Assembly (NCBI RefSeq): GCF_900009145.1
Contig: NZ_LN889812.1
Coordinates: 66,969-107,034, forward strand
Direction: 5' to 3'
Length of the DNA stretch: 40,066 bases
DNA from: Planktothrix tepida PCC 9214
GTDB lineage: Bacteria; Cyanobacteriota; Cyanobacteriia; Cyanobacteriales; Microcoleaceae
The notes below the pieces were generated by a model, which saw only the letters and a program-made list of their open reading frames with translations, did no database searches and was not told where the DNA came from. A program made the translations under genes and the position numbers. Shown in pieces: positions 4,453-40,066 of the stretch (its first letter is position 1; every line of letters starts with the position of its first letter).

Positions 4453-5382
4453 ATGACTGAAAAATATAGACTTGTTACCCGCAGTGATTTCGATGGTTTA
4501 GTCTGTGCGGTTCTTTTAAAAGACTTAGATATCATTGATGAAATTAAATTTGTGCATCCTAAAGATATGCAGGATGGCAAAATAGAAATTACAAATCAGG
4601 ATATTACAACAAATTTACCTTATGTTGAAGGGGTGCATTTGGCGTTTGATCATCATTTAAGTGAAACCATTCGCAACCCTGTGGTTAATAGTAATTATAT
4701 TATCGATCCGAATGCCCCTTCTGCGGCTAGGGTTTTATACAATTATTATGGGGGAAAAGCTAAATTTCCGGCTATTTCTGAGGAAATGATGGAGGCAGTA
4801 GATAAAGGAGATTCTGCCCAATTTAATCAAGAAGAAATCTTAAATCCTGAAGGTTGGGTTTTATTAAATTTCCTCATGGATGCTCGGACAGGGTTAGGAC
4901 GGTTTCGGGATTTTCGCATTTCTAATTATCAACTAATGATGGAGTTAATTGATTATTGTAAAAATCATCAGATTTCTGATATTTTACAACTGCCAGATGT
5001 AAAAGAACGGATTGAAATTTATTTTGAACATGAGGAAAATTTTAAGGATCAAATTAAACGCTGTTCTACAGTGCATCAAAACTTAGTGGTTTTAGATTTA
5101 CGACCTGAAGAGGTGATTTATGCCGGAAATCGGTTTATGATTTATGCTTTATTTCCCGAATGTAATATTTCAATTCATGTTTTATGGGGCGTTAAACAAC
5201 AAAATACCGTGTTTGCGGTGGGTAAATCCATTTTTAACAAAACCTCTAAAACTAATATTGGAGAGTTAATGTTAAAATATGGCGGAGGCGGTCATGAAAA
5301 TGCCGGAACTTGCCAAGTCGAAAATGAGCACGCTTCTCAAATTTTACAGGAATTAATCACTCAAATTAATCAAGACGGTTAA
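4453..5382 (+). CDS. DHH superfamily phosphoesterase
   Basis: This 309-residue protein has the DHH/DHHA1 architecture. The N-terminal metal-binding motif is SDFDGLVCAV (residues 11-20), and the name-giving DHH is at 66-68 in LAFDHHLSE. The C-terminal GGGGHENAG (277-285) is the substrate-binding glycine-rich loop of DHHA1 domains. Family members hydrolyse phosphodiester or phosphoanhydride bonds (oligoribonuclease NrnA, exopolyphosphatase, cyclic dinucleotide hydrolases). The exact substrate cannot be read here. AAGGAAA lies upstream of the ATG. It is transcribed in the same direction as the DUF3370-type gene, 67 bp downstream of it. Confidence 0.88.
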   Translation: MTEKYRLVTRSDFDGLVCAVLLKDLDIIDEIKFVHPKDMQDGKIEITNQDITTNLPYVEGVHLAFDHHLSETIRNPVVNSNYIIDPNAPSAARVLYNYYGGKAKFPAISEEMMEAVDKGDSAQFNQEEILNPEGWVLLNFLMDARTGLGRFRDFRISNYQLMMELIDYCKNHQISDILQLPDVKERIEIYFEHEENFKDQIKRCSTVHQNLVVLDLRPEEVIYAGNRFMIYALFPECNISIHVLWGVKQQNTVFAVGKSIFNKTSKTNIGELMLKYGGGGHENAGTCQVENEHASQILQELITQINQDG

Positions 5383-5449
5383 ATGGGTTCCTTTTAACTT
5401 CTTCCCGAATTCCCAGTGGTGTTTTATTTTCGCTCACAAATTTGTGTCA

Positions 5450-5487
5450 CTTCTCCCCTAGCTTCTCCTACACGGAGAGGGGAGAAG
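5450..5487. terminator. GC-rich hairpin after the DHH gene
   Basis: Perfect 10-bp arms CTTCTCCCCT (5450-5459) and AGGGGAGAAG (5478-5487), with further pairing inside (TTCTCC/GGAGA). The position is 67 bp after the DHH phosphoesterase stop. No strong T-run follows. It probably acts as a terminator or is part of the dispersed CCCCTCTCC repeat family also seen at 5529, 18310 and 35774. Confidence 0.45.
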
Positions 5488-9707: not shown

Positions 9708-10049
9708 TTAGAAAATGAGTACCTCTATTTTTGCCTGAACTTCTTGAATTACATCTTCGGGTACTATTTCAATAAACTGAATTAAACGAACTTTATAATC
9801 CAAACTTTTGATATGGTCTACCAAAATAACGCCATAAGTTTTTAAGTCTAAAGGAAGACTCACTTCAAAAGGATAGCCTTTTACCTGTGCTGTAATTGGC
9901 ATAAATAAAGCTAAGGAGTTCTTAACATTATATTCGTAAGGTGAAATAACGAAAGCGGGTCTTAAGCCCTTTTGTTCATGTCCTTGAGTGGGATTAAAAT
10001 TTAATTTGACAATATGTCCCCTATCAGGAATATAGGATTGATTTACCAA
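9708..10049 (-). CDS. mazF: MazF/PemK-type endoribonuclease toxin
   Basis: A 113-residue protein with the MazF/PemK hallmark N-terminus: RGHIVKLNFNPTQGHEQKG, then LRPAFVIS. The conserved arginine of that segment and the loop Thr/Ser positions in MPITAQ are consistent with an mRNA-cleaving toxin of this family, though the Glu/Thr active-site set was not aligned. It overlaps the upstream antitoxin gene by 7 bp (10043-10049), the usual TA arrangement that keeps translation coupled. The frame is intact, so the module may be functional. Confidence 0.88.
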   Translation of the reverse strand: MVNQSYIPDRGHIVKLNFNPTQGHEQKGLRPAFVISPYEYNVKNSLALFMPITAQVKGYPFEVSLPLDLKTYGVILVDHIKSLDYKVRLIQFIEIVPEDVIQEVQAKIEVLIF

Positions 10050-10285
10050 ACTTCATTCCCCACGGCGAGTCCTGTGTCTGTTTCAGTGTGGCAATTTTCA
10101 GGAGTGATTTGGCTCACAAGTTCTTCAAGAGAATAACGTTTACGATTACTGGGTTTAATCACAATCGTTCCATTTTCTACACTAAAAGTAACTTGTGAAC
10201 CTTCGGAAATTTGAATCGCTTGAGCAATATTTTGAGGGATGCGAACCGCTAGACTATTCCCCCACTTCGCTACATTAGTTACCAT
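10043..10285 (-). CDS. mazE: MazE-type AbrB-fold antitoxin
   Basis: This 80-residue protein has an N-terminal SpoVT/AbrB DNA-binding domain (AKWGNSLAVRIPQNIAQ, then EGSQVTFSVENGTIVI). Its acidic, flexible C-terminal tail (EELVSQITPENCHTETDTG) is the part that wraps the toxin in MazE proteins. It is expected to neutralise the overlapping MazF product and to autorepress the operon by binding upstream of 10285. It is the promoter-proximal gene, as usual for MazEF. Confidence 0.88.
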   Translation of the reverse strand: MVTNVAKWGNSLAVRIPQNIAQAIQISEGSQVTFSVENGTIVIKPSNRKRYSLEELVSQITPENCHTETDTGLAVGNEVW

Positions 10286-35933: not shown

Positions 35934-38084
35934 CTATTTTAATCTTAAAAAATTTAAGTGTTGTCCATCAAGTTGTAGGAGCTTATTTAAGTTTCCTTGT
36001 AATTTTAATTGACTTTCTTCTAAATAAATAATCTCATCTGCTCTCCGATTCACGCTAGGACGATGACTAATTAAAATTGTGGTTTTCCCTTGACGATAAG
36101 TTAATAATTCATTTAATAAATTTTCTTCACTAATCGGATCTAATCCTGATGTTGATTCATCTAAAATTAAGATAGGGGGATCATTTACAATCGCTCTAGC
36201 TATTGCTAATCTTTGACGCTGACCGCCGGATAAATTAGCCCCAAATTCCCCTAAGATTGTAAAATATTTATCAGGAAGTTGATCAATAAAATTATCGGCT
36301 TGGGCAAATTGACACGCTCTCACAATTTCTTCAAAAGTAACATGAGGTGATCCAATTCTAAAATTTTCAATAATACTCCGACTCCAAAACTGAGCTTCTT
36401 GGGGCACTAAAATCACTTGTTTTCTAATACATTCTAAACTTAAATTTTGTAAATTATAAGCCCCGACTCTAATTGTTCCTCCCTGCAATTCATATAATCC
36501 CGCTAGAAGTTTTACCAAGGTACTTTTTCCACAACCGGATTCCCCAATAATTGCTGTGACTTTTCCTCCTTTAATATCGACATTAAAATCTTGAAATAAA
36601 TCTAATCTTCCTGCATGATGATATAATATATTTTCACAGTAAATTATATCATTATTTTTAAATGTTACCCATTCTTTTTGAACATCATTATCAATTTCTG
36701 AAGGATAATCAATTACTGAAAAAATTCGTTGAATAATAATTCTTATTCTAACAAGTTCAGTCAGTAAACCTACTACTGTTTTAATAAAAACAGTAAAATT
36801 AACACTCATACTGTTAAAGGCTAAAAGTTGTCCGATGGTTAATTCTTTATTAATAACTAAGGTACTTCCAAACCACAATAAAACTATCCCTCCAATACTA
36901 GAAATAATCTCAGAGAAATTAAAATTTGTTACGCCAATTTGTCCGATTTTAAATTCTAAATTGGCTAATCTGCCAAAACGAGTTTGTAAATCTTCCCAGA
37001 ATTGAGGTTCGGCTGTCGTTGTTTTTAAGGTAATTGCGCCTTTGAAACTTTCAATTAAAACCCCATGAGTTTCTCCTTCTAATACCATAATATCTTTAAT
37101 TTTTTTTCTTAAAGACATCAAAAAAACTAAAGATGATGTCGCACTCAATAAAGTGATAAATATGATTAATAAAGTTAATTTATAACTATAAAATAGCATT
37201 AAACTCAACGAAATAATAGCGGTAAAAGATTGAGTCAAAACTCTAACAAACGATTGAGAAATAAAGAAATTAATTTCTTGAATATCTTTTAAACGGCTTA
37301 CCACCTCCCCACTGCGATGAGTTTCATAATATTGTAAAGGTAAATTTAATATTTTGCGACCAAATTCTTTAATTAATCCTAATTGTAACCGATTAGAAAA
37401 TTGCATACTTAAGTTAGCTTGAATCACTTGTAATCCACTACTAACTAAGTTCATTATAATAATCGCTATGGCTAATCCTCTTAGGATTTTTTCTTCTCCT
37501 CTAATTAATACATCATCGGTTAAGATTTGAATCAGAAAGGGAGAGGTTAAGGCTAAAAGACCGAGAACACTATTAATTAATAAAACTTCAAATATAATAA
37601 ATTTATAAGGCGCAATACGCTGAAAAAATCTCCCTATTCCCTCAATTTTATCGTCAGGTTGTTGAGCAAAACGTATCGGATCAGGTTGTAATAAAAGAGT
37701 AATAAATCCTGACCAACTTTCTGATAATTCTTGACGGGTCACATAACGCATCCCCACACCGGGATCTGCAATAATATATCTTTTACCTTTTTGTCCATAT
37801 AAAACCACATAATGATACCCTTTCCAGTAAATAATGGCGGGTAAAGGTGCATTTTTCATCTGATCTAATATTTGCGGTTGTGCTCTGGTGGAACGCGCAT
37901 CAAATCCCAAATTTTCTGCACCCCTTCTTAAACCTGTTAATGTTGTTCCTAATTGACCCGTACCTACGGCTTCTCTAATGCGATTAATACTAAAATTTTT
38001 GTGATAATATTTAACAATGGTAGCTAAACAAGCGGCTCCGCAATCTTCTTCACTATGTTGTAAAACAATAGGATATTTTGGCAT
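35934..38084 (-). CDS. Peptidase-containing ABC exporter (C39 protease-TM-ATPase)
   Basis: A 716-residue fused exporter that cleaves double-glycine leaders and translocates the released peptide. The N-terminal C39 domain (1-135) is catalytically complete: Q9 (oxyanion), C15 in EEDCGAACL, H91 in GYHYVVLYG and D107 in IADPGVG. Six membrane segments follow (~160-440). The ATPase has Walker A in IGESGCGKSTLVKLL, signature LSGGQRQRLAIARAI, Walker B in ILILDESTSGLD and the switch His in LISHRPSVN. The double-glycine precursor genes on the same strand at 38671-39884 are its evident substrates. No HlyD-type adaptor gene is adjacent. The ATG is preceded by an AT-rich region holding repeats. Confidence 0.95.
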   Translation of the reverse strand: MPKYPIVLQHSEEDCGAACLATIVKYYHKNFSINRIREAVGTGQLGTTLTGLRRGAENLGFDARSTRAQPQILDQMKNAPLPAIIYWKGYHYVVLYGQKGKRYIIADPGVGMRYVTRQELSESWSGFITLLLQPDPIRFAQQPDDKIEGIGRFFQRIAPYKFIIFEVLLINSVLGLLALTSPFLIQILTDDVLIRGEEKILRGLAIAIIIMNLVSSGLQVIQANLSMQFSNRLQLGLIKEFGRKILNLPLQYYETHRSGEVVSRLKDIQEINFFISQSFVRVLTQSFTAIISLSLMLFYSYKLTLLIIFITLLSATSSLVFLMSLRKKIKDIMVLEGETHGVLIESFKGAITLKTTTAEPQFWEDLQTRFGRLANLEFKIGQIGVTNFNFSEIISSIGGIVLLWFGSTLVINKELTIGQLLAFNSMSVNFTVFIKTVVGLLTELVRIRIIIQRIFSVIDYPSEIDNDVQKEWVTFKNNDIIYCENILYHHAGRLDLFQDFNVDIKGGKVTAIIGESGCGKSTLVKLLAGLYELQGGTIRVGAYNLQNLSLECIRKQVILVPQEAQFWSRSIIENFRIGSPHVTFEEIVRACQFAQADNFIDQLPDKYFTILGEFGANLSGGQRQRLAIARAIVNDPPILILDESTSGLDPISEENLLNELLTYRQGKTTILISHRPSVNRRADEIIYLEESQLKLQGNLNKLLQLDGQHLNFLRLK

Positions 38085-38240: not shown

Positions 38241-38339
38241 TTATCTATTTGACAAATTATGTTTATCTAACAATCTTTGTAACAAACTTTCCGATAAAAT
38301 CAAGTAATTAATGGGCGAAGTATTAGAAATAATAATCAT
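38241..38339 (-). pseudogene. PIN-domain toxin remnant with internal deletion
   Basis: A 32-codon frame. Residues 1-15 (MIIISNTSPINYLIL) match the start of VapC-like PIN toxins, including the first acidic-site region (here N instead of D in SNTSPI). Residues 16-32 (SESLLQRLLDKHNLSNR) resemble the C-terminal helix of such proteins. The catalytic middle is missing, so it is probably a deletion relic. Its ATG overlaps the stop of the BrnT-like fragment (GAATGA). Confidence 0.55.
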
Positions 38340-38461
38340 TCCGATTGATCTTCAAAAGAAAGTGCATAAGGATCGAACAACACAGCCTCAGCATCAGAAA
38401 AACTGACTCCGTGTTTTTGTAAATTGCTTTTAGCTTTTTCAGGATTCCATTCAACTCGCAT
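38336..38461 (-). pseudogene. BrnT-like toxin, truncated
   Basis: A 41-codon frame with the BrnT N-terminal pattern: MRVEWNPEKAKSNLQKH, then GVSFSDAEAVLFDPYALSFED, then a stop. Full BrnT ribonuclease toxins are ~90 residues, so about half is missing, including most catalytic residues. No BrnA antitoxin is seen. An AT palindrome (ATACATATAATATATGTAT) lies immediately upstream and may be the old promoter/operator. Confidence 0.7.
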
Positions 38462-38604: not shown

Positions 38605-38634
38605 AACTTCCGAAACTATAATATCTCGGAAGTT
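38605..38634 (-). terminator. Hairpin downstream of the last precursor gene
   Basis: A perfect 9-bp stem: AACTTCCGA (38605-38613) and TCGGAAGTT (38626-38634) with a 12-nt loop. On the minus strand it follows the first precursor's stop by ~36 nt and is followed by TAACTTATTTTTTAGC. It may terminate most precursor transcripts before the exporter. A diverged copy of the right arm and its 3' flank lies at 39313-39358 after precursor 4, showing that the repeat unit includes this region. Confidence 0.55.
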
Positions 38635-38670: not shown

Positions 38671-38835
38671 TTATCCAGGCATTTTGGGTCTACCTACCAT
38701 TCCCCCCCATCCACCGCGTACAAATACTTCTTCTTGTGCTGTCATATCAGTAAATAAAGAATTATTGCGAATATCTGGGCTGGGTTTTTGGGTTTTGTTG
38801 GTGGTAGTAGCGGAATTGTTTTGAGTAGCTTTCAT
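38671..38835 (-). CDS. Double-glycine precursor peptide 1
   Basis: 54 residues. The leader (1-42) ends RNNSLFTDMTAQEEVFVRGG and the predicted core is WGGMVGRPKMPG (12 aa). The leader fits the C39 consensus: hydrophobic at -4 and -12, Thr at -11, Glu at -8 and GG at -2/-1. I start at the ATG at 38835, preceded by AAAGGTC on the minus strand. A longer in-frame start at 38952 would run through the neighbouring precursor gene in another frame and is not likely. It is the precursor nearest the C39 exporter, about 590 bp upstream of that gene. The core has no Cys, Ser or Thr, so lanthionine chemistry is excluded. Confidence 0.85.
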   Translation of the reverse strand: MKATQNNSATTTNKTQKPSPDIRNNSLFTDMTAQEEVFVRGGWGGMVGRPKMPG

Positions 38836-38851
38836 GATTTTGACCTTTTTG

Positions 38852-39016
38852 TTAATTAATGAAAGTGGGTTTAAATAATAGTTCTGGCGCACGGAAGCGT
38901 CCACCCTGGACAAACACTTCTTCTTGGGCTGTAATATCAGTGAATAAAGCATTGTTGCGAATATTTTTGCTGGTTTTGTCGGTGTTTTTTTTAGAATTGT
39001 TGTGATTAGTTTTCAT
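38852..39016 (-). CDS. Double-glycine precursor peptide 2
   Basis: 54 residues, MKTNHNNSKKNTDKTSKNIR followed by NNALFTDITAQEEVFVQGG and the core RFRAPELLFKPTFIN (15 aa). It has Q instead of R at -3. The Shine-Dalgarno GAGGGTAAAACT lies directly before the ATG. It ends 16 bp before precursor 1 starts, so they are surely co-transcribed. The leader N-terminus is nearly identical to precursor 4. Confidence 0.85.
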   Translation of the reverse strand: MKTNHNNSKKNTDKTSKNIRNNALFTDITAQEEVFVQGGRFRAPELLFKPTFIN

Positions 39017-39072
39017 AGTTTTACCCTCAATTTAATAATTCCTGTCAGTACAGAAAGGAAAATTAATCTTTA

Positions 39073-39246
39073 TCAGAATGTCATACCTAACTCCATGATA
39101 ATCTTGCTTAACCAGTTCGTTTCACCCCGTCCACCGCGTACAAACACTTCTTCTTGGGCTGTAATATCAGTAAATAAGGCATTGTTGCGAATGTCTGGGC
39201 TGGTTTTGTCGGTGTTTTTTTGAGAATTGTTATAATTAACTTTCAT
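39073..39246 (-). CDS. Double-glycine precursor peptide 3
   Basis: 57 residues. The leader (1-39) ends NNALFTDITAQEEVFVRGG and the core is RGETNWLSKIIMELGMTF (18 aa), the longest among the complete copies. I use the ATG at 39246, with GAGGATAAAACC immediately upstream; a longer in-frame start at 39300 lacks this signal and breaks the leader similarity. The core is amphipathic rather than proline-rich. Confidence 0.85.
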   Translation of the reverse strand: MKVNYNNSQKNTDKTSPDIRNNALFTDITAQEEVFVRGGRGETNWLSKIIMELGMTF

Positions 39247-39368
39247 GGTTTTATCCTCTTTATATGTTGATTTTTGGGAATGTAATTTAAGATTGTGCAA
39301 AGCATAACCTCACTATAATATTTCGGAAGTTATGGCTTTACTTATTAACATTTAATAAAATTGTTTGA

Positions 39369-39518
39369 TCATCGTTCCGGTGGTGCGACCACTTTTATTT
39401 TACCACCCCGGACAAACACTTCTTCTTCAGCCGTTATCTGAGTAAATAAAGCATTGTTGCGAATATCTTTCCTGGTTTTGTCGGTATTATTTTTAGAATT
39501 GTTGTGATTAGTTCTCAT
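39369..39518 (-). CDS. Double-glycine precursor peptide 4
   Basis: 49 residues. The leader MRTNHNNSKNNTDKTRKDIR continues NNALFTQITAEEEVFVRGG; the core is KIKVVAPPER (10 aa), the shortest. GAGGATAAAACC precedes the ATG, identical to precursor 3. Its downstream flank (39313-39358) is a diverged copy of the flank after precursor 1. Confidence 0.85.
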   Translation of the reverse strand: MRTNHNNSKNNTDKTRKDIRNNALFTQITAEEEVFVRGGKIKVVAPPER

Positions 39519-39654
39519 GGTTTTATCCTCTTGGCAAATTAGCTGATGTTTATGGATGCAATTTATGAGTTTTGAGGAGAAGCAATTTAATCAAAATCAT
39601 TTCCGGTGTACAATGCCTGGGCCTGACTCATCATTTGAGGTGAGTGTTACTCTG

Positions 39655-39682
39655 GGAGTGTCCTCTCCTTGGGAGGGACTCC
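39655..39682 (-). terminator. Weak hairpin after precursor 5
   Basis: Outer arms GGAGT/ACTCC with partly paired CCTCTCC/GGGAGGG inside, 16 nt after the precursor 5 stop on the minus strand. It could attenuate transcription into precursor 4. No T-run follows. Confidence 0.3.
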
Positions 39683-39697
39683 AAATTGAAATTGAGG

Positions 39698-39850
39698 TTA
39701 TGTCGGCCTCATGAAAGGCGGCACCCCTACTTTCCCCCCACGTACAAACACTTCTTCTTCAGCAGTGATATCAGTGAATAAAGAATTATTGTGAATGTCT
39801 TTGCTGATTTTTTCGGTGTTGTTGTGAGAATTTTTGTGATTAGTTTCCAT
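39698..39850 (-). CDS. Double-glycine precursor peptide 5
   Basis: 50 residues. The leader METNHKNSHNNTEKISKDIH continues NNSLFTDITAEEEVFVRGG; the core is KVGVPPFMRPT (11 aa), proline-rich like that of precursor 4. GAGGACAAAATC precedes the ATG. The 5' untranslated sequence (39851-39886) is a near copy of that of precursor 2 (39017-39052), including TTTAATAATT and CTACAGA/GTACAGA. Confidence 0.85.
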   Translation of the reverse strand: METNHKNSHNNTEKISKDIHNNSLFTDITAEEEVFVRGGKVGVPPFMRPT

Positions 39851-39881
39851 GATTTTGTCCTCGATTTAATAATTTCTGTTA

Positions 39882-40066
39882 CTACAGACAAGCGCCTCCT
39901 TTTTCTTTTTTAAGATACCACGATCCAGCCTCAGTATCCAAACCACCCCGGACAAATACTTCTTCCTGTGCTGTAATATCAGTAGACATCTCCGAAAATC
40001 TCCAAATGCCCTCTATCGCTACTTTTGGAATCTCTAGCACTCCTGTGACGGCTTCTCCAAAAGTAA
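39882..40066 (-). CDS. Double-glycine precursor-like ORF 6, 5' partial, divergent N-terminus
   Basis: The frame is open to the right edge of the window. The visible 60 residues include TFGEAVTGVLEIPKVAIEGI, then WRFSEM, then STDITAQEEVFVRGG and a tail LDTEAGSWYLKKEKGGACL (19 aa, the only core with Cys). The GG-proximal part matches the other precursors, but the Asn-rich leader N-terminus is replaced by unrelated sequence. An internal ATG at 39989 would give a minimal 16-residue leader. It may be a recombinant between a precursor and another gene, a longer-leader class, or a relic. Completeness cannot be judged here. Confidence 0.6.
   Translation of the reverse strand, partial: TFGEAVTGVLEIPKVAIEGIWRFSEMSTDITAQEEVFVRGGLDTEAGSWYLKKEKGGACL

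Follow-up and report, generated by a model that had tools for sequence, protein, structure and literature searches.

Very short double-glycine peptide cores encoded in tandem beside a C39 exporter in Planktothrix tepida and its relatives

We studied a stretch of 40,066 nucleotides from Planktothrix tepida PCC 9214 (the window: G000:C56:66969-107034, where G000 is the host genome; window positions run from 1 to 40066 and positions preceded by C56 are contig coordinates). Five intact tandem precursor genes for double-glycine (GG) peptides of 49-57 amino acids (aa) lie there on the minus strand, at 38671-39850, beside the gene of a C39 peptidase-ATP-binding cassette (ABC) exporter. We give about even chances to the reading that this is a minimal secreted-peptide locus, whose short unmodified peptides are cleaved after GG, exported by the adjacent type I system and most likely used as extracellular signals, with the array under birth and death. 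Secretion is supported by the anatomy of the locus. Gene anatomy, catalytic residues, co-occurrence and conservation are observed; cleavage, export and extracellular action we infer. The machinery is of a known kind, and what is new here are the very short cores, one conserved core and the shuffling of cores. The components are as follows:

35934..38084, minus strand: C39 peptidase/ABC exporter of the short type, 716 aa; Pfam PF03412, PF00664 and PF00005
38671..38835, minus strand: precursor 1, 54 aa, core WGGMVGRPKMPG, which recurs as IVGRPKMPG in G002
38852..39016, minus strand: precursor 2, 54 aa, core RFRAPELLFKPTFIN, the conserved core
39073..39246, minus strand: precursor 3, 57 aa, core RGETNWLSKIIMELGMTF, which recurs in G008
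39369..39518, minus strand: precursor 4, 49 aa, core KIKVVAPPER
39698..39850, minus strand: precursor 5, 50 aa, core KVGVPPFMRPT
39882..40066, minus strand: gene 6, at an assembly join, with a repeated insert dividing the leader; remaining core LDTEAGSWYLKKEKGGACL
C56:107272-107418, just beyond the window: gene 7, core AARIAGAQ
C56:108190-109656, just beyond the window: hlyD, 488 aa, PF13437

A preliminary description of the window had proposed that a family of secreted double-glycine precursors stands next to a C39 exporter, and this was borne out: the five complete genes were all present, with cores exactly as written there. They share the leader end xxLFT(D/Q)(I/M)TA(E/Q)EEVFV(R/Q)GG, i.e., the motif first described with slight variants (LFTDMTA in gene 1, LFTQITA in gene 4, VQGG in gene 2). 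Most start codons were preceded by a GAGG/AGGA-like site (judged by eye), and over the last 25 leader codons of 17 genes from five genomes, pooled over all pairs, the synonymous proportion of differences (pS) was 0.357 and the non-synonymous one (pN) 0.082; together these place the motif beyond chance. Cys was absent from all five intact cores and four of them contained Pro, again as first described; the net charge of these four, called basic there, was +2. A single-protein search of the host genome gave eight matches, all on contig C56 (genes 1-5, a short match to gene 6, and gene 7 twice, its region being duplicated), and a profile search gave ten, the extra two being leader-start fragments beside single-N joins. 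The second copy of the gene-7 region (C56:121,445-122,231) was 99.9% identical over 787 bp and may be a true duplication or an assembly artefact. Gene 6 is incomplete, as had been noted, but was not simply cut by the window edge: it reads as an interrupted gene at an assembly gap, because a single-N join stands at the next base past the window (C56:107035) and the insert between its leader halves, at least 80 bp long, has another copy near C56:122,720, at a distance of about 0.4 kb from a further N. The interruption was probably made by a mobile repeat; the open reading frame (ORF) overlapping the other copy of the insert received no Pfam name.

The exporter, encoded downstream of the array, aligned nearly end to end with PCAT1 (4ry2) and ComA (8hf7). 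Its C39 domain starts at residue 3, with no N-terminal CAP_ED domain, and Walker A and LSGGQ motifs are present. Cys15, His91 and Asp107 lie in what we take to be the expected C39 motifs. That assignment agrees with the triad named in the available part of PMC6363468. In the genus set of ten genomes, an exporter orthologue at least 95% identical was found in all four with an array (G000, G002, G005 and G008) and in full length in none of the six without one; exporter and array thus occur together. Further arrays were found in two other named lineages, Phormidium LEGE 05292 (G192) and Planktothricoides (G095 and G117; the core set was taken from the one-contig genome G117, of the genus of strain SR001, whose draft is gapped there). 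Neighbouring genes at most loci were identified by eye from ORF lists, with Pfam scans on some only. In this way the exporter, HlyD and the array were recognised as common to the loci, and PF13437 was present in HlyD at all four loci scanned (host, G008, LEGE 05292 and G117); in G005 hlyD is cut by the contig end. The gene tsaD adjoins the locus in G002 and the host, and other neighbours were seen in G008, G005, LEGE 05292 and Planktothricoides. On the reading given above, the C39 domain would recognise the leader and cut after GG, an ABC/HlyD/outer-membrane channel would release the unmodified short peptide, and the peptides would act as signals between filaments or cells, RFRAPELL[FY] being conserved and the others lineage-specific.

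The intact cores of the host have 8-18 residues and those of the short-core relatives 4-21. The cores found in the relatives were:

G002: IVGRPKMPG, RFRAPELLYKPTFIGMELS, AQYDESGPGIVHRK, TSRIAGAS
G008: KRGVLNL, TQRFRAPELLY, GGRGETNWLSKIIMELGKTFS, AQYDESGPGIVHRKCF
G005: RFRAPELLF, ASRIAGAS
Phormidium LEGE 05292: RRVQ, RFRAPELLY
Planktothricoides G117: TQRFRAAELL, TQRFRAPELLF, AAELLFKPT, RFRAAEL

The cores GETNW, GRPKMPG, RIAGA and QYDESG were each present in at least two genomes, and KIKVVAPPER, KVGVPPFMRPT and KRGVLNL in one genome each. The preliminary description had called the cores unrelated and hypervariable. The first holds inside the window, but several cores recur between species; the second is not supported in that form, as conservation of one core is strong and core exchange, indels and decay seem to account for at least some of the differences among the genes. 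KVGVPPFMRPT (29%) and KIKVVAPPER (10%) looked by eye like homologues of RFRAPELLFKPTFIN but were rejected, since their core DNA identity to host gene 2 was below the 95th percentile of shuffles (44%). Farther away, a metagenome-assembled genome of Nostocales has a similar leader end followed by a core of 85 aa, and distant family matches of marginal significance (E 2e-4 to 9e-3), mostly in genus g11, show LFTE(I/L)T..E and longer cores of their own. At loci L036-L061 (g11 and relatives) the leader is SLFTE(I/L)T.EESASVNGG or similar and two longer core types recur, one Tyr/Arg-rich and often ending AVVRYW, the other ending QLY.YDPSR.RPYKT(L/I)VV or similar.

The core RFRA[PA]EL was found in all four array genomes of the genus, in LEGE 05292 and in Planktothricoides. 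Changes in RFRAPELL summed over pairs were 12 synonymous and six non-synonymous, the latter all at the terminal F/Y. The five sets of recurring cores, dominated by RFRAPELL, gave a pooled pS of 0.197 and pN of 0.041; these proportions and those of the leader come from few, related sequences and are indicative only. The pattern RF[R]A[PA]EL matched in 41 of 388 genomes of the order (matches of 30 examined, the other 11 set aside) and in 44 of 388 genomes of the class, a draw overlapping the first (30 examined, 14 set aside). Among the examined matches it was linked to GG only in G000, G002, G005, G008, G192, G095, G117 and G166, and the matches examined from 30 genomes in the class scan added no GG-linked case. 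An open-access literature search returned no paper containing the string RFRAPEL.

Genome G166 belongs to a further family (f7) and encodes MSEIKITELTIDQNPKMIDLKAEAEKGNEEAIIALKSLRGG-AQRFRAPELLF inside a 12-kb contig, among apparently ordinary chromosomal genes. Profile comparison of its leader with the array leader gave a probability of 0.6%, i.e., no relation was found. Over the nine RFRAPELLF codons it differs from the host in 9 of 27 bases and in no residue, all changes being synonymous. Since the leader is unrelated and the residues are unchanged, RFRAPELLF seems to have been preserved with two different leaders, and possibly with two routes of export, in one case in one draft genome. The open frames that hold the two C39 matches of G166 have 917 and 990 codons, which by length makes them long-type. 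Its leader family had matches in 13 of 388 genomes, and RFRAPEL was found behind a leader of that type in none of the other cores examined, among which the G297 core was not included. A bolder version of the signal reading, which we regard as possible but doubtful, would make (x)QRFRAPELL[FY] a leader-independent extracellular signal of several Cyanobacteriales lineages, capable of passing from one leader family to an unrelated one and from one export route to another, and the arrays peptide banks whose conserved leaders act as recombination sites shuffling core cassettes behind different promoters.

Identity in the last 66 nt of the leaders was about 85%, both where the cores agreed and where they differed. 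We compared 60 nt upstream, two parts of the leader, the core and 60 nt downstream in 18 genes from five loci, using Mantel p-values, which ignore shared ancestry. The upstream flank tracked the 5' part of the leader (r 0.38, p 0.0004) and the core tracked the downstream flank (r 0.43, p 0.0002), while upstream flank and core were uncorrelated (r 0.00, p 0.49), as were the 3' part of the leader and the core (r 0.03, p 0.35). Because the leader tends to go with the 5' flank and the core with the 3' flank, the leaders look like recombination sites at which cores are shuffled. Single genes give the same picture: an identical 60-nt upstream flank precedes KIKVVAPPER (host gene 4), RFRAPELLY (G002) and GETNW (G008), and host gene 7 and the QYDESG gene of G008 are 97% alike upstream, 98% in the leader and 12% in the core. 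Crossing-over inside leaders would be a simple explanation of these mosaics. In G117, two orphan 48-bp units of leader end plus core, EVFVRGGRFRAPELL(F)-stop, lie directly behind the first gene without leader or start, and may be raw material for exchange or slippage debris. Decay is seen as well: in G008, KRGVLNL precedes a GRPKMPG core sequence that can still be read (0 of 1000 shuffles reached its alignment score). Small indels distinguish the C-terminal extensions. On the reading favoured here, the array evolves by birth and death, similar leaders permitting recombination that moves cores behind other leaders and upstream regions; duplication of short cassettes, displacement of cores by indels and breakage by inserts would add to the change.

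A stretch of about 60 nt located 3' of the RIAGA/RRVQ gene was conserved across genera although the preceding core differs (L009:4280-4376, L024:9571-9667 and L025:6442-6538, all on the minus strand, and L028:9655-9751). Its ends can pair (AGCTGACTCT..AGAGTCAGCT, by eye), with one pair broken in two of the four sequences (host and G002), and no compensatory change was found among the four.

Several observations weigh against the signal reading. Among the common neighbours (by eye, with some Pfam) neither a receptor gene nor an immunity gene was recognised, and therefore the word signal rests on size, conservation and precedent. The array leader has Ile/Met at -12, Glu at -8 and Val at -4, but at -7 it has Glu, unlike the Leu of the ComA consensus. 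The consensus for leaders of peptidase-containing ABC transporters (PCAT) is Leu-12, Glu-8 and Leu-7 before GG, with pockets for V-4, L-7 and L-12 (PMC6363468, as far as the text available goes). Genome G006, one of the six without an array, carries a 123-residue exporter fragment at the site corresponding to the G008 locus, flanked by folD and a polyprenyl synthase gene (names by eye), with no leader match at E<=1 and no ORF of HlyD length; most simply, it would once have had the locus and lost it. Several cores look like products of drift, such as RRVQ in LEGE 05292 and KRGVLNL in G008. Two weaker correlations cut across the mosaic: one joins the two flanks (r 0.20, p 0.014), the other the core and the 5' part of the leader (r 0.23, p 0.010). 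In draft genomes, some mosaics could be artefacts of assembling short reads across similar leaders. The limits on the pN/pS and Mantel values given above count here as well.

Searches with NCBIfam and Pfam, NHLP and N11P (Nif11) included, gave no match at E<=1 for the six window precursor sequences, and PHROGs gave none for five precursors. None of the six matched the CTB family bacteriocin NF038167 (cut-off 32 bits); one long-core relative of genus g11 gave a match below the cut-off (16.6 bits, E 0.0065). The earlier statement that the peptides match no named class therefore stands for the precursor family, but the gene set fits group III of Wang et al. 2011, where, in the available part of the paper, this gene kit is described and diverse cores are noted (PMC3140520). 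The likeness lies in a short-type C39-ABC exporter, HlyD and several small GG precursors in a row; among the neighbours at the locus, mostly identified by eye, neither LanM nor a second ABC transporter was recognised. As differences, the array peptides have no precursor family match, their cores have 4-21 aa in precursors of 44-60 aa as compared with group III precursors of 29-129 aa, and that part of PMC3140520 mentions neither recurring nor shuffled cores. In Synechococcus elongatus, four small GG peptides encoded in a row, EbfG1-4, act with PteB in biofilm formation and need the C39 peptidase transporter for efficient secretion; mature EbfG has 6-7 kDa, and the array cores are far shorter (sizes compared, not sequences; PMC4997328, available part). 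For HetC, also a C39 exporter, a signalling peptide has been proposed as the cargo (PMC10986499, in the part available). A 'bacteriocin-like' 3.4-kb cluster, RiPP1, which may be the array locus or a different one, was described in Planktothrix serta PCC 8927 (Pancrace et al., PMC5259702).

ComA aligns along the array exporter, and competence peptides are likewise GG-cleaved by a PCAT. ComA-type GG pheromones are short unmodified peptides of a length similar to the array cores. Differences from that system are the Glu at leader -7 and the lack of a recognised two-component receptor at the array locus. Prochlorosins, lanthipeptides of the Nif11 type, have near-constant leaders and diverse cores, as in the array; they differ in that the host has no LanM match, the intact window cores have no Cys and the exporter is adjacent.

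Among the other explanations, that the peptides are bacteriocins, i.e., short unmodified antimicrobials diversified by competition, is unlikely in our estimate, though it survives best. The gene kit is that of cyanobacterial clusters called bacteriocin in the accessible text of PMC3140520. Four of the five window cores are basic, array size varies between species, and BrnT/BrnA genes lie by several arrays; but cores of 4-21 residues are very short, an immunity gene was not recognised by eye among common neighbours, and one core is unchanged across genera, unlike an arms-race weapon. Most pore-forming bacteriocins are longer than the 8-18 residues of these peptides, and pheromones can be of this size. 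We favour signalling over bacteriocins because of this size and the cyanobacterial precedents EbfG/PteB and HetC.

Also unlikely is the view that only RFRAPELL[FY] has a function, or else only the leader, and that most other cores are noise in a decaying multigene family. The KRGVLNL core and the broken gene 6, the RRVQ core, the G006 locus gone except for a fragment, the orphan cassettes without starts and the small indels of the C-terminal extensions all speak for it; the four cores that recur in at least two genomes each speak against it, and so does the core pN/pS of about 0.2, though this is dominated by RFRAPELL. Beside the recurring cores, others decay or are lost. Quite unlikely are ribosomally synthesised and post-translationally modified peptides (RiPPs) that depend on an enzyme gene located away from the array. 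Prochlorosins offer a precedent, in which many precursors share one promiscuous enzyme (PMC10783134, part available), but LanM was absent from five of the seven genomes tested, the host included, the window cores have no Cys and few Ser/Thr, and no modification enzyme gene was recognised as common to the neighbourhoods (the enzyme search covered LanM, not YcaO, radical SAM or other families). Class II lanthipeptides were rejected, in agreement with the preliminary description, on zero LanM (DUF4135) matches in G000 (two of the seven genomes have one) and no Cys in the five intact cores.

Other features near the array are the following:

38605..38634, minus strand: terminator-like hairpin after the last array gene, AACTTCCGAGAT..TTTCGGAAGTT
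38336..38461, minus strand: BrnT toxin remnant, 41 aa, between array and exporter; Pfam PF04365

The terminator scan gave four terminator-like sites against a shuffle mean of 2.9, few above the mean, so the prediction is weak alone; the same hairpin follows the last gene whole in G002 and G008 and in its first part in G005 and G117. The promoter scan was uninformative (14 found, 11.2 expected). BrnA had no match in the host locus stretch L009, and neither BrnT nor BrnA had one in the G002 stretch. Homologous BrnT and BrnA stretches occur in G005, G008, Planktothricoides and LEGE 05292 (L094:7315-7730; L023:8351-8771; L025:5595-6015; L028:6853-7267 and 10029-10166); two of the stretches, the window remnant counted among them, have Pfam support. 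At several loci they lie between array and exporter, but LEGE 05292 has a BrnT/BrnA pair beyond hlyD and another BrnA stretch near the exporter. No second, peptidase-less ABC transporter or SurA was recognised near the arrays of the host, G002, G008, LEGE 05292 and Planktothricoides (by eye, most neighbours without a hidden Markov model scan). A truncated second copy of the hlyD start (L009:4721-4916 and 5262-5480) lies between the host array and the intact hlyD, and 3' of the latter (L009:6771-11099) are a kinase-GUN4 fusion and two RTX calcium-binding repeat proteins (Pfam). ORFs similar to this set follow hlyD in G002 (by eye); the set was not recognised in G008, LEGE 05292 and Planktothricoides, and the G005 contig ends earlier. 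The host has a second short-type C39 exporter on G000:C57 (L138:5260-9637), 58% identical to the array exporter; near it are an ORF resembling HlyD (by eye) and a single GG precursor of ordinary kind, whose core has about 40 aa. Small GG precursors of a separate family, with short cores (MAEIKIN..L..EIIDLK.EA..GN..AI.AF..LRGG and similar), were seen at L141-L145, L147-L151 and L153 (G165, G115, G309, G341, G273, G300, G257, G249 and G279). Several of its cores are Cys/Trp-rich (CCCWC, ACWC), and many of its genes have a large ORF 3' with a PYFDLG-like start, containing TPR repeats in both cases scanned.

C39 exporters and GG precursors are numerous in cyanobacterial genomes, and few of their products are known. 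In the present case, sequence comparison sets one peptide of invariant amino acids apart from a changing background, and RFRAPELLF is a single short peptide that can be synthesised and tested for signalling or killing. The mosaic genes are a natural example of how secreted peptides can be exchanged through recombination within a constant leader.

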